A stretch of 64,000 bases of DNA from Cordylochernes scorpioides (lineage: Eukaryota; Arthropoda; Arachnida; Pseudoscorpiones; Chernetidae). The notes below the pieces were generated by a model, which saw only the letters and a program-made list of their open reading frames with translations, made no database searches and was not told the DNA's origin. The DNA lies in the NCBI GenBank assembly GCA_030710605.1, contig CP092877.1:44500406-44564405 (forward strand), read 5' to 3'. The position numbers and the translations under genes were made by a program. This document shows, one piece after another, positions 7,151-58,185 of this stretch (the first letter of the stretch is position 1; every line of letters starts with the position of its first letter).

Positions 7151-7347
7151 GACTAGCCAAATGCTTTATAACTCTAAGATATGTGCAAAACAGTTTGTTA
7201 TTTAAGAAAAAGGCATCTCCTTATCGTGCAACTGAAAGTTGCTGATGGCTTGCGCCATCTATCGGAATAAATATCAACTATTCTGGTTGATTTTTAATTA
7301 TTCCAGAATTGGCCAAATACCCATTCTTGATTAATCAAGAAAAGCTA

Positions 7348-7389
7348 ACCACGGACGCGTTTCGGGCTGTTGGCCCTCATCAGCGTGGT
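7348..7389 (-). ncRNA. Hammerhead ribozyme motif, copy A
   Basis: Reading the minus strand: ACCACG, then CUGAUGA, then GGGC-CAACA-GCCC, then GAAAC, then GCGUC, then CGUGGU. Stem I is six perfect pairs (ACCACG with CGUGGU). Stem II is four GC pairs with a five-base loop. Stem III is only AC/GU with a two-base loop, the minimal form reported for Penelope-like elements and newt satellites, where dimers cleave better. All core bases (CUGAUGA, GAAA, UC) are present. The expected cut is between complement positions 7354 and 7353. Confidence 0.8.
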
Positions 7390-7685
7390 GCAAGCTGTAC
7401 CTCAACGACCAAAAAATTGGTCATTAAGGCATCCTGAAAAATCATGAAACGGGTAGTTAAGGCCAGATTTGCGTGAGAACGCTACACAATGTGAAAAAAT
7501 AGTACAAATGTGACATTGTACTGGGATAAGGTGCATAAATTAAGAAAAAGGCATCTCCTTATCGTGCAACTGAAAGTTGCTGATGGCTTGCGCCATCTAT
7601 CGGAATAAATATCAACTATTCTCGTTGATTTTTAATTATTCCAGAATTGGCCAAATACCCATTCTTGATTAATCAAGAAAAACTA

Positions 7686-7727
7686 ACCACGGACGCGTTT
7701 CGGGCTGTTGGCCCTCATCAGCGTGGT
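7686..7727 (-). ncRNA. Hammerhead ribozyme motif, copy B
   Basis: Identical over 42 nt to copy A and exactly 338 bp from it on the same strand. Cutting at both sites (here between complement positions 7692 and 7691) would release a 338-nt RNA with ends suited to circularisation. Confidence 0.8.
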
Positions 7728-7990
7728 GCAAGCTGTACCTCAACGACCAAAAAATTGGTCATTAAGGCATCCTGAAAAATCATGAAATGGGTAGTTAAGG
7801 CCAGATTTGCGTGAGAACGCTATAGATGCCTTTTTCTTAATTTATGCACCTTATCCCAGTACAATGTCACATTTGTACTATTTTTTCACATTGTTTAGCG
7901 TTCTCACGCAAATCTGGCCTTAACTACCCGTTTCATGATTTTTCAGGATGCCTTAATGACCAATTTTTTGGTCGTTGAGGTACAGCTTGC

Positions 7991-8032
7991 ACCACGCTGA
8001 TGAGGGCCAACAGCCCGAAACGCGTCCGTGGT
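7991..8032 (+). ncRNA. Hammerhead ribozyme motif, copy C (inverted)
   Basis: Same 42 nt on the plus strand, inside the inverted copy. CTGATGA starts at 7997, GAAAC spans 8017-8021 and the GTC triplet ends at 8026, so the expected cut is between 8026 and 8027. Confidence 0.8.
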
Positions 8033-8487
8033 TAGCTTTTCTTGATTAATCAAGAATGGGTATTTGGCCAATTCTGGAATAATTAAAAATCAACGAGAAT
8101 AGTTGATATTTATTCCGATAGATGGCGCAAGCCATCAGCAACTTTCAGTTGCACGATAAGGAGATGCCTTTTTCTTAATTTATGAACCTTATCCCAGTAC
8201 AATGTCACATTTGTACTATTTTTTCAGTTTGTTATTTGTTTAATTTTAGGCTTTGAATAGCTTATATGTTCATCTATAGATTCAGCTACCTATACATGCC
8301 AAATTTTCCAATGGTTTATTAAGTAGTTTCGGTGTAGAAGATTAACAAAGATCAATTGATCTTGACAAGAATAGATTCAGTAAGGGAGTGGATGTTTACC
8401 CAGAAAAAATGGTTTAAATAAATGTTTGTTAGGAAAACTTTCACTCAGATAAAAACTGGGCAAAGCCGGGTACATTCGTTAGATATA

Positions 8488-10850: not shown

Positions 10851-11044
10851 AAAAGAAAATAAGACCTAATCCAAATAATTTATTAGTGTGTGACGTTTCG
10901 GCAACAACATTGTCACCATCATCAGACATTCTTTTGTCTGATGATGGTGACAATATTGTTGCCGAAACGTCACACACTAATAAATTATTTGGATTAGGTC
11001 TTATTTTCTTTTATTATAATCTATTATCCAAATTGTGCTTTATC
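10851..11044. mobile_element. Hammerhead-motif element, family ii, near-perfect palindrome
   Basis: Flanked by a perfect 13-bp direct repeat, ATGATAACATTTT (10838-10850 and 11045-11057); the other host-element copy has a single unbroken site. Arms of about 76 bp (10852-10927 and 10936-11012) are complementary around an 8-base centre. Each arm, read outward, carries CTGATGA, a GGTGACAAT/ATTGTTGCC hairpin, GAAAC and GTC. The right arm continues to the family 3' end, CCAAATTGTGCTTTATC. Confidence 0.75.
10936..10976 (+). ncRNA. Hammerhead-like motif, family ii
   Basis: CUGAUGA at 10938-10944, then UGGUGACAAUAUUGUUGCC (a nine-pair hairpin), GAAAC at 10964-10968 and GUC before ACACAC. Core bases match a hammerhead. 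Stem I is only three pairs (UGU with ACA) and stem III would be ACGU with no loop, so a monomer is unlikely to cleave; a dimer might. The mirror copy is on the minus strand at 10887-10927. Confidence 0.45.
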
Positions 11045-17675: not shown

Positions 17676-18030
17676 TTACATATAACATTTGAACTCCGCC
17701 TTTGCCGGTCCCAAGCCCGGATGAAAAAGGAGGAGGGGGAGCAGTAACAAGCTCGCTAAAAACCCTGGGCTCAGCTGGCCCGGCTGATAGTACCCTGTAA
17801 GGGCTCCTAATCCAGAGATACAGGATGAACAGCGTTTGTACTCCATGTTAGGAGTGGCAGCACAGTTCCTCATGTCAGAGGCGGCCATTTCTTTTGGAGC
17901 TAAGTCTGCCTGCCACTGAGTAGTGCTCCCAGTCTTAATGACAAAGGCAGACGCATTATACTTCACCCAGTCATGATGGTTTCAAGCTTTACAGGTTTGA
18001 TACCTTAATATGATTGAGTGGAGATAAGAA
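17676..18030 (-). repeat. Dispersed repeat (copy B)
   Basis: Uninterrupted relative of 6550-7150. The minus strand is open for 96 codons (YNASAFVIKTGSTTQWQADL...), which suggests a decayed coding region. No recognised domain. 18031-18500 has no gene that I can support. Confidence 0.5.
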
Positions 18031-21693: not shown

Positions 21694-22236
21694 AACTTTA
21701 AAATATACATAAGTAAAGACTACACTCTTGGGATCAGAGAACAACGTAGAATATATTAATCGCCAAAAGAAAATAACTTTTAACAAGTGGAACTTTTGCG
21801 AAATTAAGAGACAACAAGTTGATTGTCGCAGGCATAAAGTACCAAGTCGTAAATGGAAAAAGTGTCAGTCCAAATGGGGCTGAATTATAGCAAATAAACA
21901 AAAATAATCTAGAGAAAAAATGTAATTATTTAAAAATAAATAAATCTAACCAACATATACCTTTTGATGGAAATCAAAACAAAGCCTGTCCACCCAATAA
22001 AACACTTAAATCTAATATAAACTTTACAATTACACAGCCACGAATCGATGTTGACAGCTCAGAAACTTTACAGCCATTGCAAAATAAAATACATACAAAT
22101 AATCAAGAATACAAATAAATGTTCACAAAAAAGTTCTGAGAACAAAAAGATAAAAGATTTCACTATAAAAGCTAAAAAACCCTATACATGTAATTCTAAT
22201 TATGTAAATCTAAAAATAAGGAAATCAAATCCTAAA

Positions 22237-23091
22237 ATGAACAACATTGAAATAATGTGTTGGAATATAAATGGTTTAAATAGAATTTGTTCCTCGTTTC
22301 CGGTTGTTAATTATCTAAAAAACTTCAAAATTATTGTTTTGTTGGAAACCTGGTGTGACCATCCGATTGACTTTCCACTGGGAACATTTTGTATTTATGA
22401 ATCATTGGCTTTGAGGACTGCAAACCGTGGAAGATGTTCGGGTGGAATTATTGTTGGTTTAGGAAACGAGGTTCAAGCTTTGACCCATAAGGTGGAAGTT
22501 GAAAGATTTTGGATAGCAATATTCCTGAAACAGAATTCAATTCCAGAATTTCCATCTGCTTGTTTGATTTTCGTGTATATTCCACCAGACAATTCGCAAA
22601 TGGAAAATCTTAACAAACTATTCAGATATATAGAAACTCAAATACAGGATGGTTACGGGATACTCCTGGGTGGTGATCTGAACGTCCGTACCGGTAGCCT
22701 GGGAGGGTTCCACAACCTAATGGAAAATCTGACAGTACTTTCAACCGGGCGTCTGTCTAAAAACACGCTAATACACCCTCTTGCTGAGACTCTAATCAAC
22801 TTTTTAGACAATAATCTATTAACCATAGTTAACGGCAGATCGAAAAGTGATAATTGCGGAAACTATACATTTATTTCTGATCGAGGATCCTCGGTTATTG
22901 ATCTAGTGATAGTTTCGCCGGCCATGCTTGAATTCATTGTCGATTTTTACGTCGACGACATGCCTTATTCTGACCATCTCCCAATTATAACGAAGATAGG
23001 CCTAATGACTAAAACTGACCAAGATAAGAGAAGGAGATTGAATAGTATTAAAAATATATTACTGGTCCCCAGACAAAGCTACAACTTTTAG
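22237..23091 (+). pseudogene. LINE ORF2: AP endonuclease domain
   Basis: ATG at 22237 opens MNNIEIMCWNINGL, the start of an exonuclease/endonuclease/phosphatase fold. Further landmarks are VLLETWCDHPID (catalytic Glu), LLGGDLNVRTGSL (GGDxN), NCGNYTFISDRGSSVIDLVI and, at the end, PYSDHLPIIT (SDH). All the key motifs are present. This domain nicks target DNA. The frame closes at 23091, one frame off from the next part, so a frameshift separates it from the reverse transcriptase. Confidence 0.85.
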
Positions 23092-23098
23092 ACGCAGT

Positions 23099-25446
23099 AT
23101 GGACGAGCTGGATACTACTCAGATTACCCTGAGTGATACTATAGATTCTCAGATAAACTGGCTCTCCAACAAAATTACGACAGCAATGTCACAATCAGGA
23201 ATGCTGCGCACTTCAAAACTGGGTGACGAGAGGTCAAAACCATGGTTTGATGGGGAATGTTACCTTGCAAAAAAGACAATGAAGGAGAGTTTAAAAAGGT
23301 TTATGACAAAAAAATGAAGCTGAAGACAGGGATTATTATGTGAATAAAAGGAAAAAGAAAGAAAAAGAAAAAATTCTATGAAGATATATGCCTAGCCCTT
23401 CAGAAGTCCAAAGATTCTGCCGGATTTTGGAAGGCAGTATCTCTGTTTAGAAAACGGAGCAGCATAACAGGCAAAATATCGATTGCAGAATGGCAAACTT
23501 TTTATGCTAAACTTCTCTCTACAACCTCAAATCCAGAGATTAATATATCACTTTATATTAGATATTCTGATCCTCTACTAGACGGTGAAATCACTGATGC
23601 GGAAATAGAGACAGAAATCTTTAAACTAAAAAACGGTAAAGCTCCTGGAATAGACCATATTCCCAATGAGGCGATCAAGGCCCTCCATAAAGATCAACTA
23701 AAAAGGCTAGTATGCATATTCAACCAAATTTTAGAAAACGGTTCTTTTCCATCGTTATGGTCCAAATCAATTATTCACCCTATCTTTAAAAACGGAGATA
23801 TGGAAAACCCCTCAAATTACCGCGGCATTGCACTTGTTAGCAACCTCTCCAAGCTTTTTTCATCAATTCTTAAAAACAGAATGACTAAATGGATAAAAGA
23901 CAAGGGAATATTATTTGAAAACCAGGCTGGGTTTAGAAGGGGACACTCTTGTCTGGATCACATATTTACTTTGACTTCTTTGATACAACTTACATTAAGA
24001 AAGAAGAGAAGGAAACTTTTTGCTTTCTTCGTTGACCTGATGAAAGCGTTTGATACAGTCGCACATTCACTCTTATGGAGGAAATTGACCGAATTGGGCA
24101 TAAGTAGCCGTTTTATTACCGTGATACGGAGTTTCTATGAAAAAATGGAAGCGGTTGTGAGATGGGAAGGCTCTTTTACACAACCAATTAGGATTCGATC
24201 TGGAGTGCTGCAGGGAGAGCCGTTGTCTCCATATCTTTTTATCTTATTTATTAACGATCTAATCAGCACGTATAACGGCTCTGAGTTACCGGGTATTTGC
24301 CTTCCGTGTTTTGGAGAGGTCCACTTGCTTTTGTATGCTGATGACATCGTTCTCTTGGGGGAGTCCAAAATAAATCTACAAACCAAGATTAATATACTAA
24401 AGAAATACCTCGAAACGAACTATTTAATACTTAATGAAAATAAGTCTAAAATAATGGTTTTTCGCAATGGAGGTCGACTCGCAATATCTGACAAATGGTT
24501 CTGGGGCGAAAGACCACTGGCTATTTCAACAAAGTACAATTATCTTGGCTATCCTTTGTCAACAACGACTTCATAAACACAAGTTGCCAAGCATTTTCAG
24601 GGCAAGGCACTGTCTGCAATAAGTGCGGTGTGGACAATCATGACTAAGACTAAAGTTAACTCCCTTCAGGCACCTTTAAGACTATTGGACTCAATGGTTG
24701 TAGCGGTACTCCTATACGCAGCTCCGATCTGGGCTTGTGATCAAAAGGAGTTACTGGACAAGACTCAGGATGTTTTCCTGCGTCGGCTTTTAAACCTGCC
24801 CAGGTATACCCCAGGATATATCCTTCGAATGGAGTGTGGACGAACTTCTCTTGCAGTCACCTTCATAAAACTTACAATGAAATACTGGATCAGAATCCTC
24901 AATATGGAAGCTAATCGATTACCATTTATATGCTTAACTGAACTAATGAATTTGTCCCGAAATTCAAATATCCACATAGGTCTTGCTAAAACCATTAATG
25001 ACATTCTGAATTCCACTGGTTTTTCTTATCTGATTAATTGCATCGATAAGGACTTTCTTCAACATGAACTGCCACTGATTATTAGAACAGCAATAGACCA
25101 ATCCATACAAGGTGACTGGGCGAGAATCAATAATACAAAACTATATCCTCACTATAGAAACCTGAAGAAAACATCCCTTCCTGAAGGATATCTGTCGGAC
25201 AATCTTCCATTCATTGTTAAACGACACATTGCCCAACTGCGAGTACTTTACACATTCTTCCGGGAAAATCACAAGAACATTTTCGGAGAAGCGGAACTGT
25301 TATGTAAGTTCTGTAAGCAGAAAATGAACTCCGAAATATCTCACTATTTTTTCCACTGTACAAGTATTTCAGATGAAAGAAAAACATTTATTTCGAAACA
25401 GGATAATAGATTCCCGGACACAGTTGAGGATATCTTAACAAACTAG
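23099..25446 (+). pseudogene. LINE ORF2: reverse transcriptase and C-terminal zinc region
   Basis: 23099-23317 is the linker (KPWFDGECYLAKK). After a frameshift near 23310-23370 comes the reverse transcriptase: NGKAPGIDHIPNEAIK, NPSNYRGIALVSNLSKLF, FAFFVDLMKAFDTV, SGVLQGEPLSPYLFILF and the catalytic LLYADDIVLL. A TAA at 24574-24576 interrupts, and the same frame continues from there with ALSAISAVWTIMTKTK to the C-terminal CKFCKQKMNSEISHYFFHC zinc region (C-x2-C...H...C) and ends at 25446. The related copy at 53073-54218 lacks that stop. Confidence 0.85.
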
Positions 25447-25562
25447 ATAACAGATAGAAAGTTTTCACTGGATCTATGTGGGTTTTCCAAGGCAGTGAAC
25501 AAAAAGGCATCGTTACTGTTACCTTGAATTGAGTGAATGTGTATATGTGTATATATATATAT

Positions 25563-25686
25563 TGTGCTGAGAAGATGTAAGAAAACATCTACCTATGTTT
25601 CCCCACGTGACGAAGCGGAGCGTGACCTCGGCTGCACGGGTGAGTCAGTTGTTGTTTGGCACTCTGTATAGATGGACATTAAAACA
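25563..25686 (+). repeat. Gypsy 1 5' LTR and primer-binding site
   Basis: TGTGCTGAGAAGATG ... TTAAAACA, followed directly by TGGTGGCAGCGATAACTGG, which fits a tRNA primer-binding site. Confidence 0.9.
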
Positions 25687-25768
25687 TGGTGGCAGCGATA
25701 ACTGGATAAAATACGAACCCGTATATTGCAAAATATCGATTTTTGCGTACCTTGGAAGATAATTCAAC

Positions 25769-26530
25769 ATGGCTCAGATTCAACCTCCAGAAACTTTCGA
25801 CTTCTCGACTCCCAACGAATGGCCCAAATGGAGGAAAAGATTCGAACGATACCTCGTGGTCAGTGGAATGAAGAAGAAAGAGGAGGCGGACAAGATCGAT
25901 TTGTTCATGTACTTGATGGGCGACCGCGCGGATGATATATTCAGGACCTTCAAGTTCGAAAAGGAGGAAGAGGCAACGAAAATTGATTCAGTCCTCAAGG
26001 CGTTCGACAGCCACTTCTGTGTCAGAAAGAATATTATCTACGAACGTGCGAAATTTAATTCAAGAATCCAAGAGGATCGGGAGCCAGTGGACGAATTCAT
26101 CACTTCATTGTACAAATTGGCTGATAGTTGCGAATTTGAGGGTCTTCATGAGCAGTTGATCCGTGACCGAATAGTGGTTGGAGTGAGGGACAAAGCTTTA
26201 TCTGAAAGAATGCAGTTGGACAGCGAACTGACTTTGGAAAAGGCGGTGAAAATGGTTCGACAGCAGGAAGCCGTTCGACAGCAGCAAGTCGACCTGCAGC
26301 GTCCCTCAACAAGCCAAAAGGTCAATCAGGTGAAGTTCAACTCGAAGAAACAATCACCGAAACAACAACAGCAACCTTCGAGGAAGAAGGAGAAGTCAGT
26401 CAAAACAAGATCACGATGTCCAAAATGCGGAGGTTTCACCCACAGGGAAGGACAGGCTTGCCGTGCTGAAGGACAAAAATGTAACCTGTGTTCAAAAACA
26501 GGCCATTTGCAAATTGCTGCCCAGATAAGC
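25769..26530 (+). CDS. Gypsy 1 gag
   Basis: Starts MAQIQPPETFDFSTP at an ATG 82 bp after the LTR. The retrotransposon gag region (WPKWRKRFERYL, RDRIVVGVRDK) is followed by a basic Gln-rich linker and two zinc knuckles: CPKCGGFTHREGQAC and CNLCSKTGH. Within the second knuckle (about 26505-26515) the frame is lost and the sequence continues in the pol frame, one base apart; a single lost T explains it. Confidence 0.85.
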
Positions 26531-28254
26531 AGGCGAAGACTGCGGAAGTCAAAGCTGTTTCTGAACTTGATGAAGAAATTGGTGTTCTCCTGGAGGTCTC
26601 AGCTGTGGAGGTTTCATCTAATCTCGATGATGATGAAGGCGAGTGCAGGAGGCGATGGACAGCAGAAATCCAAGTGAACGGGAAACAGCTGAAGTTCAAG
26701 CTCGACTCCCAGGCGGATGTTACATGTGTTCCTCTGTGTCTCTTCAAGAAGATAATGGGACAGCAACGACTAGTGAAAAGTGATATCAACATTAGAGCTG
26801 CTGAATTTTCCGAACTTCAGACTGTGGGTATGTTTATATCAACGCTGCGAAATGGCAGTTATGAAATCAAGGAGAAGATTTATGTCATTCGTCGTTTGAG
26901 TGAACCTCTTCTGAGTCGCCGGGCATGTGAGCTCTTGAACCTGGCGAGGCGGATTGAAGTGGTTGCGACGAGAATTAACCCGATCAAGGAATTCCCTGAA
27001 GTATTTGAAGGACTGGGACAGATCGGAAACCCTTACGAAATCAAATTGAAACCTGGAGCAAAACCATATGCTGTGCATACTCCTCGACGGGTACCAATAC
27101 CTCTGATGGAAAAGCTCAAAACAAGATTGGAAGAGCTCGAGAAGGCGGGAATCATAGCACAAGTTAACGTTGCGACTGAATGGTGTGCACCGACTGTGAT
27201 TGCTGGTAAACCGAATGGCGACATACGACTCTGTGTGGATCTCTCAAGGCTGAACGAACATGTACAGCGCGAAGTGCATCCCATGCCAGTGGTGGAGCAC
27301 ATGCTGGGGCAACTGGGGGAAGCAAGATTCTTTTCGAAACTGGACGCGAACAGTGGCTTTCACCAGATTCCGTTGAGCCCGGACTGCCAGCATTTAACGA
27401 CCTTCATCACTCCTTTTGGGAGATACAAATACTGCAGAATGCCATTTGGAATCTCACTCGCCCCAGAGTATTTTCAGAAAGTTATGTCAATAATCTTGCA
27501 AGGCATGGACGGTGTAATGTGTTACCTGGACGATATCCTGATATTTGCCTCCGACTCCAAGACTCACGATCGAATTCTTCGTTTAGTGCTCCGAAAACTG
27601 AAAGAGGCGAAAGTTACACTAAACAAGGCCAAGTGTGTCTTCGGCGTGCCAAGAATTAATTTTCTTGGGCACATACTGGATGAAGACGGTATCCGACCAG
27701 ATCCAGCGAAAATCGAAGCGGTGGCGAAGATGCCTGCTCCGACAGATGTTCATGGCGTAAGAAGATTTCTTGGCATGGTGAACCATCTAGGACGTAAGCT
27801 CCGAACGACCTTGCCAATTGCACCAGAGAATCTTAATCCAAAGTTGGTGGACTCTCAGACCCTGAAAAGAAAGGAGGGGAGAAGGAGAAAGGATATGAAA
27901 TCCAGATATGATCGACGCTGCGGAGCTACGGACATGGAGGAGCTATCCGAAGGTGACACTGTTTGGATTACAGATATGCGAACCTGGGGGATTGTAAAGC
28001 AGAAGGCATCGACACCAAGGTCATATTTGGTTGATACTCCAGTTGGGACTTTACGTCGAAACAGGTTCCATCTACGAAAAGGAGTTACAGTGCAATATCC
28101 AGCCGACCCATCGACGCCGACCTTTTCGGGGGAGGAACTGGTTGAAAATGAAAAGACCCCAGTTGTGGATTATCCCTCTAACGACTCAGAAGACGGCCAG
28201 ATAAGAACCCGGAGTGGACGAATTGTTAAACCTGTGGATCGCCTTCATTATTAA
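26488..28254 (+). CDS. Gypsy 1 pol, RT fused to integrase tail by an in-frame deletion
   Basis: After the rest of the zinc knuckle, a protease region with LDSQADVTCVP (the usual D-S/T-G is altered to D-S-Q), then reverse transcriptase: LCVDLSRLNEHV, FSKLDANSGFHQIPL, RMPFGISLAPEYFQK, VMCYLDDILIFA and NFLGHILDEDGI. At FLGMVNHLGRKLRTTLP the RT connection jumps straight to the piece that normally follows the integrase core. The C-terminal part (EGDTVWITD, NRFHLRK, TRSGRIVKP) stays in frame to a stop at 28252-28254. RNase H, the zinc site and the DDE core are missing. Confidence 0.85.
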   Translation: MFKNRPFANCCPDKQAKTAEVKAVSELDEEIGVLLEVSAVEVSSNLDDDEGECRRRWTAEIQVNGKQLKFKLDSQADVTCVPLCLFKKIMGQQRLVKSDINIRAAEFSELQTVGMFISTLRNGSYEIKEKIYVIRRLSEPLLSRRACELLNLARRIEVVATRINPIKEFPEVFEGLGQIGNPYEIKLKPGAKPYAVHTPRRVPIPLMEKLKTRLEELEKAGIIAQVNVATEWCAPTVIAGKPNGDIRLCVDLSRLNEHVQREVHPMPVVEHMLGQLGEARFFSKLDANSGFHQIPLSPDCQHLTTFITPFGRYKYCRMPFGISLAPEYFQKVMSIILQGMDGVMCYLDDILIFASDSKTHDRILRLVLRKLKEAKVTLNKAKCVFGVPRINFLGHILDEDGIRPDPAKIEAVAKMPAPTDVHGVRRFLGMVNHLGRKLRTTLPIAPENLNPKLVDSQTLKRKEGRRRKDMKSRYDRRCGATDMEELSEGDTVWITDMRTWGIVKQKASTPRSYLVDTPVGTLRRNRFHLRKGVTVQYPADPSTPTFSGEELVENEKTPVVDYPSNDSEDGQIRTRSGRIVKPVDRLHY

Positions 28255-29836: not shown

Positions 29837-30760
29837 TTATTTAATATGTGAATAACCTTCACATATTATTCATTGTTGCAAATATCATAAACTATGTTGC
29901 TCTTATTGAGCGGTACCTAATGAAGTGATTTTGGAACCGAATAGCTGCTGTAATAGATATTGGTAGAATAAACCCAACTTCAGATTGGTTCAATTGGACA
30001 GTAGATTGTGGCCCTCATCAGTAGAGAAGTTTCTGGAAAGAGGCGATTCTATTTGAGTTTGATGTTTAAAAATTTTAATGGGAATAAATGTTTAGTGTTT
30101 ATAGAGAAACTCTTACCTGACATCTTCGATATTTACTCTCACTTTAGCTCTTTGTTTATATTATTTAGTTTCTTTACCATGATATTCTTCAAAATTATAA
30201 CTGGTGTTTTTTCTTTTTGACATCATTAAACATTTAACTTCGGGAAATTTCTGAACACGTAGAATTTTGAAGGCACATTTCTTTATTTCTTCATAAAGCA
30301 TTTTTATTGCCTCTTTGCCTGAGATCAAATCAATCACCTTTATCTTCAAAAAATAGCTTTTTGGTGAAGTTTCGCTTTTTTTTTTTTGTCTTCGTTAACT
30401 TTTATGATTGGTGGAGAGAGATTGTAAATCATTGGTGTGCAATTTATAATATATATATTTTGATAGAGAATAGAATATTCAAATAAAAGTATAACTATAT
30501 TTTGAAAAAAATGTTTCTTAAATAGAAATGAATTATCAACCATTGTTATTTTAACAAACATAACTTTGATTTAATTAGTGTCCAGGATAAATCAACTTTC
30601 GAATAATTAATTATTCATGTAAAAACACAAATGGAATTGATTTCTCGAATGATTTTATTTTTGGAAGATTTATTTTTAATCAACGATGTTTTGAGTTTTA
30701 GCATGAATTGTCTCACTAAATATCATTTGGCATTTCTTTTGTATAAAAAAAATAGTAAAA

Positions 30761-30830
30761 ACGTGATATTGTACTGGGATAAGATGCATAAGGGATAAGG
30801 AGATGCCTTTTTTTCTTAATTTCTTTAATA
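30761..30830. repeat. Fragment of the family i retrozyme-like repeat
   Basis: GTGATATTGTACTGGGATAA and GGATAAGGAGATGCC match the ends of the 7204-8224 units. The ribozyme part is not present. Confidence 0.55.
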
Positions 30831-30863
30831 ATTTTCAAATTTAAATAATACTCGAACTATGTG

Positions 30864-31066: not shown

Positions 31067-34000
31067 TTAGTATCTAATCATGTCCTTAAATCTAGAAGGA
31101 ACATGTATTTGTCTTCCACTTCTAGTGATGACAGTCTTGTTTTCATTCTCATTAGGTGATTCATTTGGGTATAAACAGTCCATATCAGATATAGCAATCT
31201 GCTCTTCTGGTACAATATCTTCTAAGGTTGCTTCTTGTTCTGGTAGATACCTTGAAGTACTAGGAAGTTCCATTCTAATTTCTGGAGTCTTAATCAAAGT
31301 GGTATTCAAATCAATTCCTTTGTTAAAATCTTGTAAGACATTGGCATGTCTTAAATGCTTTGCATTCCTAATGATAAAGCTACCTGTCTCAGTATTGACT
31401 AACTTGAATGAATTTGGAGATATAGTCTCTAGAATGATAAATCTTTGGTTGTCATAATTTGGTGTCAACTTGCTTTTCATTTCAGTGTTTGCGACATAAA
31501 CAATATTACCTTTCTTGAAGTCATGAGGCAAGGCCTTATTCTTGCTATCAGCATATTTCTTCATTCTTTCTTTATAGGCTTGATTATGCTCCATCACTTC
31601 TTTATCCATAAGAGAATCATTGTCATTTATATCATTGAGCTTATTTCTAATTTCCCTGGAAAAAAGCAATAATGCTGGTGTTTTCCCAGTAGAAGGGTGT
31701 GGAGTCGACCTGTATGCCATTAGAACACATTGAAGTTCTTCTTTCCAATCCTTTCCTTGCAATTTTACTGAAATAAGTTGCTTTTTTAAATATCTGTGGA
31801 AACGTTCAATTTTTCCATTACTTTTAGGATAATATGGTGACACTCTTATATGTTTTATACCTGATTTCATAAAAAATTGCTCAGTATCTTTGCTTACAAA
31901 TTGAAGACCATTATCTGAAACTATTTCAATGGGAAATCCATATCTTGCAAAAATTTCTTTTAATTTTGAAATTATAGTTTTCGAAGAAATATCATTTATT
32001 ATAATCGCTTCCGGGAACGATGAATAATAATCAATAAGTGTCAAAATATATTTTGAATCAATTGGTCCAACTAAGTCTACTCCTACTTTATACCATGGTC
32101 TAGGTGGTATTGGTATGGTTGTTAAAGGTTGGTCATGCCTTAAAAGTTGATTGACTTCACAAATGTAACAATTCTTTATACGTCTTTCTATATCTTTGTC
32201 CATATTGGGCCAATAGTATTTTTCTCTTAAAATTTGTTTAGTTCTAGCAATCCCTTGATGAGTTTCATGAGCTAAGTCTAAAATATTTCTTCTAAGATCT
32301 GTTGGTATAACAATTCTCTTTCCTTTTAAAATGAGATTATCATAAACTGAAAGTTCTTCCTTAAATTTGTGCAAAATTTTAAGTTCATCATCATCAATTT
32401 GATATGGCCAATTTCCAGTTTGAATTATTTTAGTTAGAAATTTGAAAAATGGATCTGCTTCACTTTGCTTCTTGATATCATTGAGGGAAATTGCCTTCAT
32501 TTCTTCTGAAAATATGGAAAGTACTTTTTCCACATAATCATCAACAATATTTTCACATGAAATATTTGTTAAAGGTTTTCTTGAAAATATATCTGCAATA
32601 TTTTGTTTGCCCTTAAGATACTCTATTTCATAATCATAAGGTTGAAGTCTCCAACTAAGTCTTTCAATTCTTGGTGGCAAGACTGTTGCCTTCTTGGGAT
32701 TAAGCATATAAATCAATGGTTTATGATCTGTCTTAAGTACAAATTTATTTCCCCATAAATAGTCATTGAAATGCTCAACAGCCCACACACACCCAAGAGC
32801 TTCTTTCTCTATTTGTGAGTATCTTCTCTCAACATTAGTCAATGATCTACTTGCATAGGCCACTGGCTTTTTGCTTCCATCATTTTGTCTTTGTAGTAAA
32901 ACAGCTCCTAAACCTACAGGACTAGCATCAGCAATTACTTCGGTAGGTGCATTCATGTCAAAATAGGCTAAACATGGATTTTTTGTAAGAGCTTCTTTCA
33001 ATTTTCTGAATGAGTCCTCTTCTTTCTTGCTCCACTTCCATTTTATGTCCTTTCTTGTCAAATTATTAAGTGGTTCGGCTAACTTTGAAAAGTCTGGAAT
33101 GAATTTTCTTAAAAATCCGCATGTACCTAAAAATGATTTTAGAGAATCTACATTTTCAGGTTTTGAAAAACTTAGAACACTTTCTATTTTCTTTGGATCA
33201 GGTCTAATTCCATCTTTACTAACAATATGGCCTAATATTTCCAATTCATTTAGAGCAAATTTACATTTACTTTTGTTTAGTTTGAGTCCAACTTGTTGAA
33301 ATCTTTCAAATACTTTTTTCAGTCTTTGATCCAATTGTTCTATAGATTGCGCATATACAATCACATCATCTATGTAGCATAACACTCCTTCTAAATGAGA
33401 CAATATTGAGTTCATAGCTTTTTGAAAAGCTTCAGGTGCGCTGCAAAGTCCAAAAGGAATTTTGCAAAATCTGTAGCATCCTCTGGGTGTAATAAAGGTG
33501 GTCAATGGCCTGGACTTTTCATCAAGTTCAATTTGCCAAAAGCCTTTCTTCGCATCAAGTTTAGCAAAAAATTTTGCTCCCTGCAATGCTTGCAAAATAT
33601 TGTCAACTGTTGGTATAGGATATCTCTCTCTAACTATGGCTTTATTCACTTCTCTCAGATCAACACATAGTCTGATTTCTTCAGTACCCTTTTTTGGAAC
33701 TGCCACAATGTTTGAGATCCATTCAGAAGCTTCATGGACTTCCTCAATAATGCCATCTTCTATCATTTTGTCTAGCTCTTGATTGATGGCTTCTACCATT
33801 TTATATGGAAAATGTCTGCATCTCTGAGCTACAGGAGTAACATTTTCTTTTAGAGTTATTTTTTGACTATAACCCTTCACATTTCCTTGACCTTGAAAAA
33901 GGTTCATGTTTTCTTGTATCAAATTATATATATCCTTCGGAATAACTTCCTGTTGAATATTCCTTATTTTTGTTCCACGCTTTATAATTTCTAATTCGAA

Positions 34001-34732
34001 ACTTGCTTTCTTTCCTAAAATAGGTTCTGCTTTACCTTCAATCACAAAAATCTGTTCCTTTATAGACCTTTCACCCCATGAAACATCTGCAAAGAAATAT
34101 CCACAACATGGAAGAGGTGAAGTTTGTCCATAGGCATAAAATTTCCTTTCTGTACCATTTAAAGTTGGCATTTGAGATTTAGGAAAAATATTTTTCAAAT
34201 TTTCAAGTCCTATGAATGTTGTATCACTACCTGTATCAATAGTCATTTTTATTTCCTTTCCATCTATATAGATACTTTCTTTGTTATCAGAGCCTAAAAA
34301 GAAAGTGTATTCATCTGAGTCTTCATTATTTTCTGAAATATTTTGAATATTTCTTTTCTTTCCTTCAATATTTTTATATTTATTTTTATTTCTACAAACT
34401 CTTTTAAGATGACCCATCTTGTTACAAAATGTGCATTTCATATTTCTAGCTCCACATTTATATGGAGGATGTGTAGTTAAGCCACATCTATAGCATTCTT
34501 CCAAATTAGGTGCACTTACCTTGGAGGTGCTTCCTTTTTGATGGTACACATTATGAGCTTTTGGTCCTTTAACAGTTGATTCATTAGCTGCTTGGAAATT
34601 ATTTTTATAGTTTACTCTATTTATTGAGGTCATATCTTCATTTGTCAATACTCTAAATTCTTCTTTGGCTGTTTCAAACATTCTTGATATCTCAATTGTT
34701 CTTTGAAGATTCAAATTATCTTGTTGCAACAA
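31067..34732 (-). CDS. Gypsy 2 pol polyprotein
   Basis: About 1220 codons, open throughout. In order: the end of gag with two zinc knuckles (CYRCGLTTHPPYKC and CTFCNKMGHLKRVC); protease (MTIDTGSDTTFIG, with the DTG triad); reverse transcriptase (LCVDLREVNKAIV, FAKLDAKKGFWQIEL, VLCYIDDVIVYA); RNase H (VIADASPVGLGAVLL, KTDHKPLIYM); integrase with an HHCC site (HQGIARTKQI ... CYICEV), DDE core (VGVDLVGPIDS, IVSDNGLQFVS, YYPKSNGKIERFHRYL) and a C-terminal region. It ends just before the purine tract. The reading frame has no ATG at its upstream end because it continues gag in another frame. All catalytic motifs I can check are intact. Confidence 0.9.
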   Translation of the reverse strand: MLQQDNLNLQRTIEISRMFETAKEEFRVLTNEDMTSINRVNYKNNFQAANESTVKGPKAHNVYHQKGSTSKVSAPNLEECYRCGLTTHPPYKCGARNMKCTFCNKMGHLKRVCRNKNKYKNIEGKKRNIQNISENNEDSDEYTFFLGSDNKESIYIDGKEIKMTIDTGSDTTFIGLENLKNIFPKSQMPTLNGTERKFYAYGQTSPLPCCGYFFADVSWGERSIKEQIFVIEGKAEPILGKKASFELEIIKRGTKIRNIQQEVIPKDIYNLIQENMNLFQGQGNVKGYSQKITLKENVTPVAQRCRHFPYKMVEAINQELDKMIEDGIIEEVHEASEWISNIVAVPKKGTEEIRLCVDLREVNKAIVRERYPIPTVDNILQALQGAKFFAKLDAKKGFWQIELDEKSRPLTTFITPRGCYRFCKIPFGLCSAPEAFQKAMNSILSHLEGVLCYIDDVIVYAQSIEQLDQRLKKVFERFQQVGLKLNKSKCKFALNELEILGHIVSKDGIRPDPKKIESVLSFSKPENVDSLKSFLGTCGFLRKFIPDFSKLAEPLNNLTRKDIKWKWSKKEEDSFRKLKEALTKNPCLAYFDMNAPTEVIADASPVGLGAVLLQRQNDGSKKPVAYASRSLTNVERRYSQIEKEALGCVWAVEHFNDYLWGNKFVLKTDHKPLIYMLNPKKATVLPPRIERLSWRLQPYDYEIEYLKGKQNIADIFSRKPLTNISCENIVDDYVEKVLSIFSEEMKAISLNDIKKQSEADPFFKFLTKIIQTGNWPYQIDDDELKILHKFKEELSVYDNLILKGKRIVIPTDLRRNILDLAHETHQGIARTKQILREKYYWPNMDKDIERRIKNCYICEVNQLLRHDQPLTTIPIPPRPWYKVGVDLVGPIDSKYILTLIDYYSSFPEAIIINDISSKTIISKLKEIFARYGFPIEIVSDNGLQFVSKDTEQFFMKSGIKHIRVSPYYPKSNGKIERFHRYLKKQLISVKLQGKDWKEELQCVLMAYRSTPHPSTGKTPALLLFSREIRNKLNDINDNDSLMDKEVMEHNQAYKERMKKYADSKNKALPHDFKKGNIVYVANTEMKSKLTPNYDNQRFIILETISPNSFKLVNTETGSFIIRNAKHLRHANVLQDFNKGIDLNTTLIKTPEIRMELPSTSRYLPEQEATLEDIVPEEQIAISDMDCLYPNESPNENENKTVITRSGRQIHVPSRFKDMIRY

Positions 34733-35172
34733 CTTTTCTTTAATTGCCTATTATAGCATTTTTCTATTATCTGATCTCTGATCATGTCTTCTTCTAAATT
34801 TCCAAATTCACAGGATTTGACTAATTCTCTTAGGGCAATGACATATGAATCAATATTTTCATCTGTATTTTGTTTTCTTTGCCTAAATTTAAATCGTTCT
34901 GATACAATATTTTTTTGTGGTGTGAAATATTTAGTTAAAGCTTCTTTTGCTTTTTCATACGTATCTTTTTCTTCTGGCAAATTAAAGAAAATTCTTTGGA
35001 CTTGTGGTCCAAGGCAATGCAAAAGTGTTGCCCTTTTAACGTCATCTTTCTTTGTTGAAACACCGCTTGCTAATTCATAAATTAAATATGAATTCATCCA
35101 ATGTTTGTACTCGGAATACAAATCTGTAGCATTAAGGTTCAACGGTAATGGAGACGTCAAATTATTTGCCAT
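34711..35172 (-). CDS. Gypsy 2 gag (N-terminal part)
   Basis: Starts MANNLTSPLPLNLNATD at an ATG 56 bp inside the right LTR. It contains the retrotransposon gag region (FTPQKNIVSERFKFRQRKQ, DENIDSYVIALRELVKS, EDMIRDQIIEKCYNR). The frame closes at 34711, overlapping pol, which lies one base back. The zinc knuckles are in the pol frame. In Gypsy 1 the same boundary lies in one frame, so this is more likely a one-base deletion near 34735 than programmed shifting, but -1 frameshifting is not excluded. Confidence 0.85.
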   Translation of the reverse strand: MANNLTSPLPLNLNATDLYSEYKHWMNSYLIYELASGVSTKKDDVKRATLLHCLGPQVQRIFFNLPEEKDTYEKAKEALTKYFTPQKNIVSERFKFRQRKQNTDENIDSYVIALRELVKSCEFGNLEEDMIRDQIIEKCYNRQLKKSCCNKII

Positions 35173-35228
35173 CTTCTGTTACGCTTATTTAATTATTATT
35201 TTCTTTTTTTAATCCTCGTCGCCAAATA

Positions 35229-35945: not shown

Positions 35946-36475
35946 AACAGATGGCGCGCTAATGCATCATAATATAATTACTCTGAAGTGTTAGAGCGAG
36001 GAAATCTCACTTTTATAATGTGACACCGTATATAAGCATTGAGGTGTGTATAGGTGATTTGTGATTTTTAATACCAATCTATACGTATATTTTATTCATA
36101 AATATACATATATTTAAATGTATAAATTTTTAATGTAAATTACTCATTACCCCCAAAACTTGTATATATGTAATATATTAAGCGTTTAAATTATTCATAA
36201 ATTTCTGTTGTTTGTGTATAAATAATTCAAGGATCTTGATTATAATTTGAATCATCTACATGAGTGTCTTCTATGACACAAACAAATATGTTGACATACA
36301 TATGACACTTATATCATCATGGTAATATATTTTGGTGTGGTAAAACAAATATTTAAACTTTTCATGAGCGAATTAACATAGTTTCTATCTTAAATTTATA
36401 AATAAGTCGCCAAATATTCCTCTAACATCAAATAGAATAATTTTTAACGCTTTGCTAAATGTTCTCATTTTTGTT
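35946..36475. other. AT-rich sequence, nothing recognised
   Basis: No coding frame or repeat that I can identify, apart from the short phrase AGATGGCGCGC. Confidence 0.5.
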
Positions 36476-36477
36476 CG

Positions 36478-36730
36478 CTTCTGACGAGGACAAAAGATTT
36501 TTGTCGAAATGTTGAGGTGATAAAATGATATACTGGCCGAAGTATCTTTAATTTGAAGAGCTATGAATGCTGGCCAGGCGGCCTCTATCTTTACGATAAT
36601 CAAGACCAATTTTGGTCCCGAGGTATTCAAGATGGCAAGGCAACTAGAGTGAGATAATAAAAAGATTTATTGGTCGAAGTATCTTCAATTTGAAGAGCTA
36701 TGAATGCCGGCCAGGCAGCTTCTATCTTTA
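36478..36730 (+). mobile_element. Hammerhead-motif element, family iii, tandem copy
   Basis: Starts with CTGACGA (36481-36487), a GACAAAA/TTTTGTC hairpin, GAAAT and GTT. Then AAGTATCTTTAATTTGAAGA and CTATGAATGCTGGCCAGGC, and, after GGCAACTAGAG, a second partial unit with the same two phrases (AAGTATCTTCAATTTGAAGA at about 36678). The second unit lacks the hammerhead block. The motif here has changed core bases (GAAAU) and should be inactive. The better copy is at 59890-60112. Confidence 0.6.
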
Positions 36731-36802
36731 GGATAATCAAATAGAAAGATATAAGAAACGGAGGAGAGTACAGCTATATTAGCGGACGAGAAGACTAACC
36801 TA

Positions 36803-54218: not shown

Positions 54219-54447
54219 TGTTGGAGAGTGACTCGCACATCGGCTGTTGCCATAGCAACGCCAGCTTCCTACCAGACATCACGTGACCTGGCTCCACGAC
54301 CGGCCGTACCAGTATAGGTTTCAGTTTGCTTTGTTGTCTGCCCCTACGCTTGCCTTTTGTTTGACTCTCTTTGTTCCTTGTCATCTTAATATAATATAAT
54401 TGTTAATTAAACATACTTTCTGAGATCCAGCCTCTGATTCTCTTACA
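54219..54447 (+). repeat. Copia 5' LTR and primer-binding site
   Basis: TGTTGGAGAGTGACTC ... TCTCTTACA, then TGGCAGCAGAGCTTGG, close to a Met-tRNA primer-binding site. Confidence 0.95.
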
Positions 54448-54517
54448 TGGCAGCAGAGCTTGGTTGGTATCAAATATTTTTTGTTTATCTAAGCTGAAAT
54501 TCGTTTGCTTGCTCAAG

Positions 54518-55402
54518 ATGACAACTGAACTTCCACAAATTCAAAAATTCAACGGCGATAATTTTCATCTATGGAAATTTCAAATGAAGATTATTCTAGA
54601 AGCAAAAGATCTTCTCAGTATAACTGATGGCTCTGAAGTAAAACCTGAAATTGAGGATATTGCAAAATTCTCTGAATAGAAAAAGAAAGATGCAAAATCC
54701 AAAATGCTGATCACTACTGCTCTAGAGTTTAAATATCTTCAACAGATTGTTAATTGCCAGACTTCAGCAGAAATGTGGAAGAAATTATCAACAATATATG
54801 AACTGAAATCTGAAACAAACAAATATTTGCTGCAACAAAGATTTTTCGAATATAAAATGAATCCAAATGATAACATTGCTTCTCACATTTCCAAAGTTGA
54901 AACTCAGGCAGAACAAATGAAAGATCTAGGTGAGCCAATCTCTGATGTTACCCTAATTACAAAGATAATTTGCAGCTTGCCTGATAAATACAAGAATTTC
55001 ATAACAGCGTGGGATTCAGTTTCATCAGAAGAAAAGACTCTAGAAAACTTGACAGCAAGATTACTGAAAGAAGAAAGCTTACAGGATCATTGGGATTCTT
55101 CAGGAAATTTTAAACCAGATAATGCCTTGATGACTTTTTCAAAGTTCAACAGAAATTCAACAGCTTCCAACAAACAACAGAAGCATCAACAATACATTAA
55201 AGATAAAAAGAAGAACACACACTGTGCAAGAAGAAATGACATTGGTGGAAAGAATGCTATAAAAGAAAGGAAGAACAAAAAGGACAACAGCCAAGTTCTT
55301 CAGCCAGAGATGATAGCTGTGCTTTTTCAGCTGAGACAAGTGCCTTCCTCGCTGAAACAAAGGATTCCTGGATTGCAGATTCTGGAGCAACGGATCACAT
55401 AA
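54518..55402 (+). pseudogene. Copia gag
   Basis: ATG at 54518 gives MTTELPQIQKFNGDNFHLWK, the usual Copia gag opening (UBN2 family). A TAG at 54677-54679 interrupts. The same type of sequence continues with LKSETNKYLLQQRFFEYKM and ISDVTLITKIICSLP. The zinc knuckle expected near 55210-55250 is disrupted by a frameshift. Protease remnants (IADSGATDHIT) are in a different frame at 55370-55400. Confidence 0.8.
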
Positions 55403-56640
55403 CTTTCAGAAGAGAATGGTTCTCTACGTTCGAAGAAATACCAGAAGGTGTTCATCCTGTGTGCCTTGGAGATGGAAAGAAGATCTATGCAAAAGGTAAG
55501 GGAAATATTGATATTTTCTCTTATGTTGATAGTCAGGAAATTAATGCAACTCTTTTGGATGTTCTCTATATACCTGAATTGGAGACCAATCTTTTTTCAA
55601 TATCTACTGCAACAAAACATGGTTTGACGCTCATTTGTAAAGGAAATCAGATAAAATTGACAAAAAAATCGAAAGTGCTAGTTACTGGAATAAAGGACAA
55701 TTCAAATCTTTATAGAATTTTTATTAAAGCAAAGCAATCTTCACAAACTCATGTTGCTCAGTTAAGTCTAGATATATGGCATCAAAGAATGGGTCATGTA
55801 AATCCTATAAAATTAACCCAAATGTTTGAAAATAATGTTTTTGAAGAAAACATTAAAATTAGAGAAAAGCCTGATTCTTTACTATGTGAAGCATGCATCT
55901 ATGGAAAACAAAATAGAAAGGTTTTTCACGCGTCAACAAGTCCAAATTCGACCTATCCAGGAGAGCTGATCTATTCAGATGTTTGTGGACCAATGAGTAA
56001 AAGATCACCAGGTGGATCATTATATTTTGTATCATTCAAGGATGATTTTTCAAGATTTAGAGTGGCCTACTTCATTAGGCATAAATCAGATGTACTTGAG
56101 AAATTTAAAGAATTTGTAAAAATAGTTAGGACTGAAACTGGAAATAAAATAAAAAGATTCAGAACAGATAATGGCACAGAATTCTTAAATAAGAATGTTT
56201 CTGATTATCTAAAATCTCTAGGAATTGTTCATGAACTCACTGCTCCATATACCCCAGAACAGAATGGAATTTCTGAAAGAGATAACAGAACAATAGTTGA
56301 ATCAGCTAGATGCTTGTTACATGGAAGAAAAATGCCGCTTGAACTGTGGGCTGAAGCCGTAAACTCAGCAGTCTATCTCTTAAATAGATGTACTACTAAA
56401 GTATTGGGAAATTCTACACCTTATGAAATATGGTACAAGAGAAAAACCCTCCATCTTACATTTGAAAACTTTTGGATGTAACGCTTATGTGCATATACCA
56501 AAAGATAACAGAAAGAAATTAGACAAAATGAGTATTCGTACATTTTTTGTTGGATATACTGAAACTAACAAAAATTATAGAATGTGGGATCCTATTGCTA
56601 AAAAAAAATATCATAAGCAGAGATGTAATATTTACTGAAG
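55403..56640 (+). pseudogene. Copia integrase
   Basis: GAG-pre-integrase region (LDIWHQRMGHVNPIK, CEACIYGKQNRK), then the DDE core: ELIYSDVCGPMSK, RTDNGTEFLNK and APYTPEQNGISERDNRT, with all three acidic residues. The frame shifts near 56450 and again near 56625. Confidence 0.85.
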
Positions 56641-56759
56641 CTAATACATCAGAAAATATTCAGGATAACCAACAAGAGCAGGTAACTATATATAGTGAAG
56701 AAAGTGTTGATAGCACAAATACCAGTTCCAAACCAGAAGAATCATGTCGATACCCTCTC

Positions 56760-57955
56760 AGGAATAGAATCAGAGAAAATGAACAAACATCAACCAGCTG
56801 TACAAGAGCTATTTCATATGCTTGTTATGTCCATGACCAAGAACCATTGAACTATGAAGATGCAATTGTAGGACAAAACTCAAAATAGTGGAAACTAGCT
56901 ATGGACGATGAATTCAATTCCTTGATGAAAAATCAAACATGGACTTATGTGACACTACCATCAGACAGAAAAGCTATTGCATGCAAGTGGGTATACAAAA
57001 TAAAGCAAAATGCAGATGGATCAAATAAAATGTTTAAGGCTAGACTAGTTGCGAAAGGTTATTCACAAAAATCAGGACTTGATTATGGTGAAACATTTTC
57101 TCCAGTAGTAAAATTCGATTCAATTAGAACAATCTTATCACTTTGTGCATCACTTGATATGGAAATGATTCAATTAGATGTAAAATCTGTACCTTCTGAT
57201 CCTTACTCAAAATTAACAAAAGAGATGTGCCCAAAGGATAATCAGGAAATTGAAGAAATGAACAAGATTCCATACAGACAGACAATTGGTAGTTTAATGT
57301 ACCTCATGACTGAAACTAGACCTGATATTGCCTACGCAGTCAGCAGGGTTAGCCAATTTATGAACAACCCAGGACCTTCACATTGGACCGCAGTAAAGAA
57401 AATATTTGGATACTTAAAAGCTACGAAAAACATCGGTATTTGTTTTGGTGGGAGTTCCTGCACTACATCTCTGATAGGTTTTTCCGATGCTGATTTTGCT
57501 GGAGACCTAGACACAAAAAAATCAACCACAGGATATGTGTTCATGTTGAATAATGGACCTATTTCTTGGTGCAGTGAAAAACAAATTGTGTGTCTCTGTC
57601 AACAACAGAATCAGAATATATTGCGGCTTCCAAAGCAACGAAAGAAGCAATTTGGCTGAGACAACTTCTACGCGAGCTACATCAAGAACAAGTGAAGCCT
57701 ACAACAATTTTTTGCGACAATCAAAGCTGCATAAGACTTGTTCACAACCAGAATACCACAAAAGAACTAAACATATTGATATTTCGTATCACTTTATCAG
57801 AGATCATTTTCAAAAACATGCAATTGACCTTCTTTATGTCTGCTCCAGTGATCAAGCTGCAGACATATTTACGAAAGCTCTACTTCCAGAAAGGTATAGA
57901 AGACTAAGAAGCCAACTTGGACTGTACGAAACAACAAAGTGCTCGTCAGGTGGGA
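56760..57955 (+). pseudogene. Copia reverse transcriptase/RNase H, catalytic core deleted
   Basis: NQTWTYVTLPSDRKAI and KARLVAKGYSQKSGLDYGET start the reverse transcriptase. After MEMIQLDVKS the sequence jumps in frame to VPSDPYSKLTKEMCPK, a part that normally follows much later; the YVDD active site is lost. RNase H continues (GFSDADFAGDLDTKKSTTGY, TTESEYIAASKATKEAIWL), with frameshifts near 57580 and 57770. The end is CSSGGSVGE before the LTR. Confidence 0.85.
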
Positions 57956-57956
57956 G

Positions 57957-58185
57957 TGTTGGAGAGTGACTCGCACATCGGCTGTTGCCATAACAACGCC
58001 AGCTTCCTACCAGACATCACGTGACCTGGCGCCACGACCGGCCGTACCAGTATAGGTTTCAGTTTGCTTTGTTGTCTGCCCCTACGCTTGCCTTTTGTTT
58101 GACTCTCTTTGTTCCTTGTCATCTTAATATAATATAATTGTTAATTAAACATACTTTCTGAGATCCAGCCTCTGATTCTCTTACA
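57957..58185 (+). repeat. Copia 3' LTR
   Basis: Same as 54219-54447 with two differences (CATAACAACG, TGGCGCCACG). Preceded by the purine tract GGTGGGAG. Confidence 0.95.

Follow-up and report, generated by a model that had tools for sequence, protein, structure and literature searches.

The subject of this study is a stretch of 64,000 nucleotides from the pseudoscorpion Cordylochernes scorpioides (assembly GCA_030710605.1, contig CP092877.1, positions 44,500,406 to 44,564,405; hereafter the window), and within it a non-coding, ribozyme-bearing insertion at 7204-8224. This insert of 1,021 bp is a single insertion, bounded by a perfect 13-bp direct repeat, CAGTTTGTTATTT, whose left copy (7191-7203) and right copy (8225-8237) are identical target-site duplications, exactly where an earlier reading of the letters alone (the sequence-only reading) had placed the element and its flanking repeat. 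Its anatomy supports its identity as a retrozyme of the metazoan type that lacks long terminal repeats (non-LTR), and we consider it likely, at a probability of about 0.8, that the locus holds a recent insertion of such a retrozyme and that a Penelope-like element (PLE) moved it in trans.

Both arms of the insert correspond to one circularly read unit of 338 nt and are read outward from the middle of the insert. The left arm (7204-7823, minus strand; 620 nt or 1.83 units), here taken to be copied from retrozyme RNA, has its outer (3') end, 7204, at unit position 1, which we call site A, and the right arm (7824-8224, plus strand; 401 nt or 1.19 units) lies head to head with it and has its outer (3') end, 8224, at unit position 49, site B. 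The 48 nt between sites A and B form a tail (8177-8224, plus strand), which is present at one outer end only and in which a possible hairpin, AGTACAA..TTGTACT, lies at 8196-8217. Another possible hairpin, GATAAGG..CCTTATC, read from sequence at 8155-8193 (plus strand), holds site A in its loop. The tandem 338-bp units on the minus strand and the inverted copy described before were confirmed by a repeat finder, with direct copies spaced 338 bp apart at 99% identity and inverted arms (364 and 337 nt) that are 98-99% identical. Rfam microRNA hits over 7753-7965 were rejected, as they coincide with the palindrome that the inverted arms form.

Inverted arms of 364 nt between 13-bp duplications are also what a DNA transposon of the foldback or miniature inverted-repeat transposable element (MITE) type, moved by a transposase, would leave behind. 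However, the outer ends here are not mutual inverted repeats, one lying at unit position 1 and the other at position 49, so that the symmetric termini of such an element are absent; the arms are unequal in length, and copies without an inverted arm as well as tandem arrays exist. We regard this explanation as very improbable.

The unit itself is non-coding, with no open stretch longer than 49 codons on either strand when read around the circle, and its guanine-cytosine (GC) content of 40.2% falls below the 45-50% bound of retrozymes. Like these, it is a short monomer (150-450 bp) found in tandem, bears a type I hammerhead with three stems, and is flanked by target duplications of more than 4 bp (13 bp here), while the highly self-paired circular RNA of the class is indicated by a predicted fold only (-111.5 kcal/mol for the circular unit, versus -69.9 with a standard deviation of 5.1 for 100 dinucleotide shuffles). 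Unit size, hammerhead, lack of an open reading frame (ORF), GC content, tandem arrays elsewhere and long target duplications together support the earlier description as a retrozyme-like element, and circular RNA from it is plausible. Two minus-strand hammerheads do lie 338 bp apart, as had been noted; the proposed release of a 338-nt unit from this locus, in contrast, is doubtful, because a read-through transcript of 7204-8224 would also include the antisense copy, with which it could form a duplex of about 360 bp. The locus would yield such a fold-back transcript and probably makes a poor source of circles.

Hammerhead ribozymes and their genome-wide family

A strict structural descriptor of the hammerhead recovered three sites in the 64 kb, with cores at 7383 (minus), 7721 (minus) and 7997 (plus), against a mean of 0 matches across 50 mononucleotide shuffles of the window. 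The predicted type I hammerheads occupy 7348-7389 (outer left copy, minus strand, predicted cut 7354/7353), 7686-7727 (inner left copy, minus strand, predicted cut 7692/7691) and 7991-8032 (right copy, plus strand, predicted cut 8026/8027). All three have a 6-bp stem I, a 4-bp stem II, a 5-nt loop II and GAAACGCGTC, in agreement with the identical 42-nt motifs, their stems and their cutting sites as first reported. The covariance check that the sequence-only reading had proposed for itself came out weak: the best Rfam hammerhead match for all three sites is Hammerhead_HH9 (RF02275), which scores 26.5 bits for the outer left and right copies and 23.3 bits for the inner left copy, below the gathering score of 52, with E-values of 5.3e-4, 5.3e-4 and 5.7e-3 over 1,401 bases and of 0.024, 0.024 and 0.26 over 64 kb. 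By the Rfam threshold, the elements are thus not members of RF02275. The genome-wide count of the motif and the compensatory changes in its stems, given below, are stronger evidence for the predicted hammerhead than the covariance score.

When the assembly (2.62 Gb in 24 contigs) was searched with the 40-nt ribozyme at up to 3 mismatches, 11,011 and 11,075 matches were obtained, 22,086 together, and the reversed-pattern control gave 0. The family to which the element belongs numbers many thousands of copies. Tandem arrays are among them: the stretches fetched for loci L029, L034, L035 and L094 (loci are cited by their L numbers) contain 5 to 7 ribozyme cores. Scans with the same ribozyme gave 0 matches in viral contigs and 5 raw matching places (L001-L005) in prokaryote sequences. 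Two further hammerhead families adjoin copies of this family (family 1); the third of them was seen at L042:85-148 (minus) and near 947 of L086 (minus), with an 8-nt palindromic stem III, ACCAUGGU. As a separate observation, an old retrozyme copy with an intact ribozyme lies in a block that is present three times, at 95-97% identity, within the first 0.41 Mb of contig 1 (L076-L078).

In 30 distinct sequences from the fetched loci, selected solely by their core letters, standard pairs are formed in 279 of the 300 cells of stems I and II. Pairing is complete, with changed letters, in all 9 sequences that belong to other families or variants, whereas one family-1 sequence is ruined and others fall short by one or two pairs. 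In an alignment of 16 sequences (A1), which were chosen by a descriptor that itself required most of the pairs, 6 of 16 pairs are changed on both sides, and 97.6% of the cells pair, versus at most 39.9% when the columns are slid by 1-3. An internal loop UGC/U in stem I and the loop CAACA, putative partners in the canonical tertiary contacts of helices I and II, are present and aligned across families. As judged from these comparisons, the stems are preserved through paired changes between families, and the predicted ribozyme is not a product of chance.

Stem III reads ACGCGU in most copies of families 1 and 2 and ACCAUGGU in family 3, and both are self-complementary. Dimeric cutting is proposed because stem III is palindromic: pairing between two copies could give a stem III longer than that of a single copy, and the ribozyme would probably cut as a dimer, a model that rests on the palindrome and on published relatives. 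Dimeric cutting of motifs with a weak stem III is described for newt and axolotl (PMC7229834; PMC6155905) and is a cited possibility for PLEs (PMC7761336). The amphibian hammerhead satellites and retrozymes, likened here by description, share with the present elements units of about 330 bp and a weak stem III that would need a dimer for efficient cutting (PMC7229834; PMC6155905). The bare palindrome is nearer to the weak helix III of the axolotl than to the stable helix III of most invertebrate type I motifs (PMC7761336). In an energy fold of the isolated ribozyme, stems I and II are kept and part of the core is paired.

Insertion ends, tails and the copied RNA

The ends of many copies were read in two samples. 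The first consisted of 39 places merged from a search with the head-to-head element (the best 40 of 3,694 candidates), the second of 30 loci, namely the first 30 exact ribozyme matches on contig 1. Duplicates were removed: L020 equals L018; L083, L090, L093, L095-L097, L102, L104 and L105 are the same insertions as their neighbours; L076-L078 were dropped as the old copy in the duplicated block; L089 was merged with L088, with which it has both flanks in common; L006-L013 are the same places as later loci; and L022 and L050 were kept as two. Other common flanks among the loci are repeats, including copies of the second family beside L033, L038, L042, L088, L091 and L099. This left 55 distinct insertions, 38 from the first sample, including the window's own, and 17 from the second.

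Thirty-five of the 55 insertions are head to head, 17 have a single orientation, 3 are arrays that extend beyond what was fetched, and none is tail to tail. Both ends could be classified in 32 of the head-to-head insertions, and in 31 of these one end lies at site A (unit position about 1-3) and the other at site B (about 49-51), the remaining one being B/B (L027); three more have one unclassified end (L023, L043, L048). If the ends were independent and evenly distributed, the chance of at least 31 such discordant pairs in 32 would, by our own arithmetic, be about 8e-9. In the ribozyme-only sample, 9 of 9 head-to-head insertions are A/B, and the single-orientation copies end 4 times at A and 4 times at B; over all insertions, 10 single copies have their end at A and 7 at B. 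The terminal sequence is ..GATGCCTTTTTCTT(A) at site A and ..GTACTATTTTTT at site B. The duplications match in 12-13 of 13 bases in 28 of the 35 head-to-head insertions, and in 17 of them perfectly (13/13), compared with 1 in 500 for a null of the same search. In AT (adenine-thymine) repeat targets some of these matches come cheaply, but this does not hold for duplications such as ATCTAATGATATG, CAACTTCATATCT, CTTTCGTAAAAAT and ATACAATAAGATG. The inverted copy is common in the family and, on the reading preferred here, part of the insertion mechanism; the sequence-only reading had noted it at this locus, and its frequency and its probable role in insertion had gone unremarked. An assembly artefact, or a tandem satellite that was later duplicated and inverted in place, might be suspected since tandem and inverted repeats are difficult to assemble, but tens of sites show this architecture, each time with duplications directly outside both ends, and we give this explanation hardly any credence.

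The possible hairpin around site A, GATAAGG..CCTTATC in family 1, has a counterpart, GGTCAGG..CCTGACC, at the equivalent place in family 2 (4 sequences, with one wobble and one mismatch); the search patterns required most of these letters, so that only two paired differences between the families carry weight. The second possible hairpin, AGTACAA..TTGTACT, sits between A and B. By analogy with Anolis, in which reverse transcription of a PLE starts in a stem-loop (PMC11167929), it is suggestive only that the hairpin at site A may mark a start site.

The lengths of the arms bear on the RNA that was copied. In 35 loci of the first sample, 44 of 61 arms exceed 338 nt, the longest reaching 1,330 nt; arms of more than one unit imply that the copied RNA was circular or multimeric. 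Divergence is 1.5% between units within an arm (34 pairs) and 1.6% between left and right arms (45 pairs), and 3.5% between different insertions (465 pairs from 31 insertions), as if both arms had been copied from one RNA species. The low divergence within insertions fits a circle, and the transcript of a young tandem array would look alike.

Two observations on neighbouring copies may be added here. Family-1 retrozymes often adjoin second-family copies at AT-repeat sites, namely at the six loci listed above, as if families 1 and 2 had a common target preference. At L022:1480-1700 and L050:430-660, one chimeric 5' junction (unit position 135 fused to the same foreign sequence) is shared, with different 3' ends, and the flanks at this junction agree at 98.7% over 150 bp; repeated copying of one chimeric RNA might leave such a pattern.

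Penelope-like elements and the proposed route of insertion

PLEs occur in the same genome. A profile of the GIY-YIG nuclease domain matched at at least 146 places (the best 150 of 17,015 candidates scored). The ORFs of L074 and L075 combine RVT_1 with a C-terminal GIY-YIG domain, and that of L073 has an N-terminal GIY-YIG domain and no reverse transcriptase (RT) match in Pfam. Canonical PLE copies carry, upstream of the start codon, a minimal hammerhead, CUGACGA..GAAACGU with a palindromic ACGU, which escaped the strict descriptor and was found with a looser motif; this motif has 11,506 and 11,672 matches in the genome, 23,178 together, with a control of 0. Opposite-strand neighbours of this hammerhead within 1 kb were minus/plus 14 times and plus/minus never (own count, among the matches listed). 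At L074, two identical inverted PLE copies lie head to head, the left end without a tail and the right end with a tail of 31-32 nt that equals the start of the ORF, and a 12-bp duplication, GATTCAGGTAAT, stands outside both ends. At L054 the tail is likewise on one end only, with a best duplication of 11/13. A query with the PLE end found 5 further loci matched in both orientations, and in all 5 one match runs through the tail and one stops before it, at query position 89-93 in four and at 68 in one. The window itself holds a small head-to-head remnant of a canonical PLE with a minimal hammerhead (59890-60111; core at 59964, minus), whose left end lies near the PLE's site A and whose right end lies near the end of the PLE tail, with a possible duplication of 11/13 (a null of the same search reaches at least 11 in 9 of 1000). 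It also holds internally deleted pieces of a canonical PLE (36433-36734, plus strand), in which the start of the ORF directly adjoins the 3' end by fusion and both a hammerhead-like core and a tail are kept; these illustrate a possible route from a PLE to a non-autonomous ribozyme element. Of the 90 ORFs of at least 90 amino acids in the window, 20 were scanned with Pfam, and none of these 20 proved to be a PLE ORF.

A long interspersed nuclear element (LINE) might instead have moved the retrozyme by ordinary target-primed reverse transcription with twin priming. LINE-like RT ORFs are present in the window, and twin priming by LINE-1 also yields inversions. LINE duplications are variable in length, however, and LINE synthesis begins at the 3' end of the RNA, unlike the pattern found here, where retrozymes and the PLEs of the same genome, on which the comparison is based, have in common duplications of mostly 12-13 bp, two fixed internal starts and one tail per insert. 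Movement by a LINE is accordingly an improbable explanation in our judgement.

Published work on PLEs describes the same kind of scar. PLE inserts have inverted pseudo-LTRs (pLTRs), an optional one-sided tail of 31 bp and duplications of 8-10 bp, and the head-to-head arrangement is a published hallmark of PLEs (PMC3846280); for one PLE protein, cleavage and extension of both strands are described, with synthesis beginning at two internal sites that are adjacent (PMC11167929). The present elements thus resemble canonical PLEs in their head-to-head inserts, duplications of about 8-13 bp, tail at one end, internal start of reverse transcription and hammerhead upstream of the start site (PMC11167929; PMC3846280), and differ from them in that PLEs encode RT and GIY-YIG whereas the 338-bp unit encodes nothing, in having no clear sequence likeness to the PLEs examined, and in a tail of 48 nt rather than 31 nt. 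The combination of inverted pLTR, one-sided tail and duplication is found here, which says that the element works like a PLE insert and not that it is a PLE; an ORF with RT and GIY-YIG is absent from the unit, and no pLTR homology appeared among the PLE loci compared. With metazoan non-LTR retrozymes (PMC7229834) the elements share a type I hammerhead in non-coding tandem units of 170-400 nt with low GC, long duplications, strongly self-paired predicted RNA and co-existence with PLEs, while the mostly head-to-head copies with two fixed starts are undescribed in the portions of that paper compared. Its authors regard PLEs as "a strong candidate" mobiliser of retrozymes, on the basis of hammerheads in common, tandem arrangement and co-existence with PLEs (Cervera and de la Pena, 2020; PMC7229834). 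Mobilisation by PLEs, which the sequence-only reading had quoted as known, is in those portions only a hypothesis, and it now gains genomic support from the insertion ends.

On the reading that a PLE moved the retrozyme in trans, the insertion could proceed as follows. Tandem copies would be transcribed, neighbouring hammerheads would pair through stem III, ACGCGU, and cut as a dimer, and the resulting 338-nt RNAs might be closed into circles by a host ligase. A PLE protein, carrying reverse transcriptase and GIY-YIG nuclease, would then make a staggered cut with 13-nt 3' overhangs in usually AT-rich DNA, as the anatomy suggests. As the ends of numerous copies suggest, the two 3' ends of the target would each be extended on the retrozyme RNA, with one start at site A (unit position about 1-3) and the other at site B (about 49-51), on either side of the hairpin. 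Arm lengths suggest that copying would often pass one unit on a circular or multimeric template, and joining of the two complementary DNAs in the middle would give the head-to-head inverted copy between 13-bp duplications. A more specific proposal, for which we see the chances as evenly balanced, is a one-tail rule: head-to-head retrozyme and PLE insertions alike would arise from two RT starts, each on its own target strand, which would use distinct fixed sites of the same RNA, with a dimeric PLE complex holding one circular RNA asymmetrically and its subunits priming at A and B, so that insertion into the two strands would be coupled and the retrozyme would be a minimal PLE substrate.

Several points weigh against the hammerhead and PLE readings or limit them. 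At gathering thresholds, Rfam places no hammerhead in the window, and a two-copy energy fold (-39.0 versus twice -16.6 kcal/mol) came out without the proposed dimeric stem III, the energy folds neither supporting nor excluding it. Many targets are AT repeats, in which a 13-bp match comes cheaply; for 38 of the 55 insertions the head-to-head element itself, which is counted in the 38, served as the query, a possible bias; 7 of the 35 head-to-head insertions have no duplication match of 12-13 bp; and L027, B/B and without a duplication, as well as L023, L043 and L048, are exceptions. Opposite-strand neighbours of the retrozyme ribozyme within 1 kb were minus/plus 6 times and plus/minus once (own count, among the matches listed). 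On the PLE side, the PLE-end query itself ends at the tail, so that tailed matches need not stop there; the likeness of the retrozyme and PLE start sites (CTATTTTTT versus CTATCTTTA) is short and T-rich; the tail has 48 nt in the retrozyme versus 31-32 nt in this genome's PLE; and, except for short stretches taken to be nested insertions (L056, L064, L065, L074), the retrozyme is unmatched in the 23 GIY-YIG loci that were examined. In an Anolis PLE assay, moreover, the hammerhead was dispensable for insertion, and RT starts were alike on both strands (PMC11167929).

The same comparisons bear on whether the element is only a Penelope pLTR, that is, a non-autonomous PLE stripped of its ORF and not a separate retrozyme lineage, for which the same movement is expected. 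The PLE-like head-to-head inserts, tail and hammerhead, the minimal stem III as in PLEs, the internally deleted PLE at 36433-36734 and the short retrozyme-like stretches in 3 of the 20 GIY-YIG loci L053-L072, read above as nested insertions, speak for this explanation. Yet the unit is unmatched in L073 and L075, and its two short matches in L074 fall outside the PLE copies; the hammerheads differ, that of the retrozyme having a 4-bp stem II and a two-part stem I, and that of the PLE a long stem II with a short stem I; and the unit has no ORF, its monomers standing alone in tandem arrays. A stripped PLE is thus an unlikely origin, albeit one to be taken seriously.

Further features of the window and wider meaning

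Beside the insertion at 7204-8224, the window contains a second, older head-to-head retrozyme insertion of 74 bp (30745-30818), whose minus arm ends at site B (unit position 49) and whose plus arm ends at site A (unit position 2), nearly the end positions of the main element (1 and 49). It is flanked by a likely decayed duplication (30732-30744 and 30819-30831) that matches in 10 of 13 bases; random pairs of local 13-mers match this well at a rate of 0.0016. Another minimal hammerhead forms a head-to-head pair at 10868-11044 (cores at 10925, minus, and 10938, plus); this stretch is about 70% like part of L073, the locus with the N-terminal GIY-YIG ORF, and an Rfam microRNA hit there falls on the palindrome. 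A Twister-P1-like ribozyme lies at 17687-17741 (plus strand; 47.8 bits against a gathering score of 67.2, E 1.6e-7 over the window), and its 34-nt core, at up to 3 mismatches, has 17,761 and 17,932 matches in the genome with a reversed control of 0. ORFs at 22021-28254, 31067-35178 and 54407-57969 are taken by us to be LINE-like, Gypsy-like and Copia-like, and others elsewhere in the window presumably encode transposases of the mariner/Tc1 type.

No report of retrozyme ends matching PLE ends was found in the literature searched, which mostly excludes subscription journals and preprints, and no priority is claimed. In the literature compared, the mobilising enzyme of metazoan retrozymes is only inferred (PMC7229834). 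The scars of retrozymes and PLEs in one genome agree in their head-to-head arrangement, the tail at one end, the stagger of about 12-13 bp and the two start sites. This agreement explains the inverted copies and names an enzyme, two start sites and an RNA hairpin for an in vitro test, so that the earlier proposal of PLE mobilisation of retrozymes is now testable, and the findings bear on PLE insertion itself, which is poorly understood.
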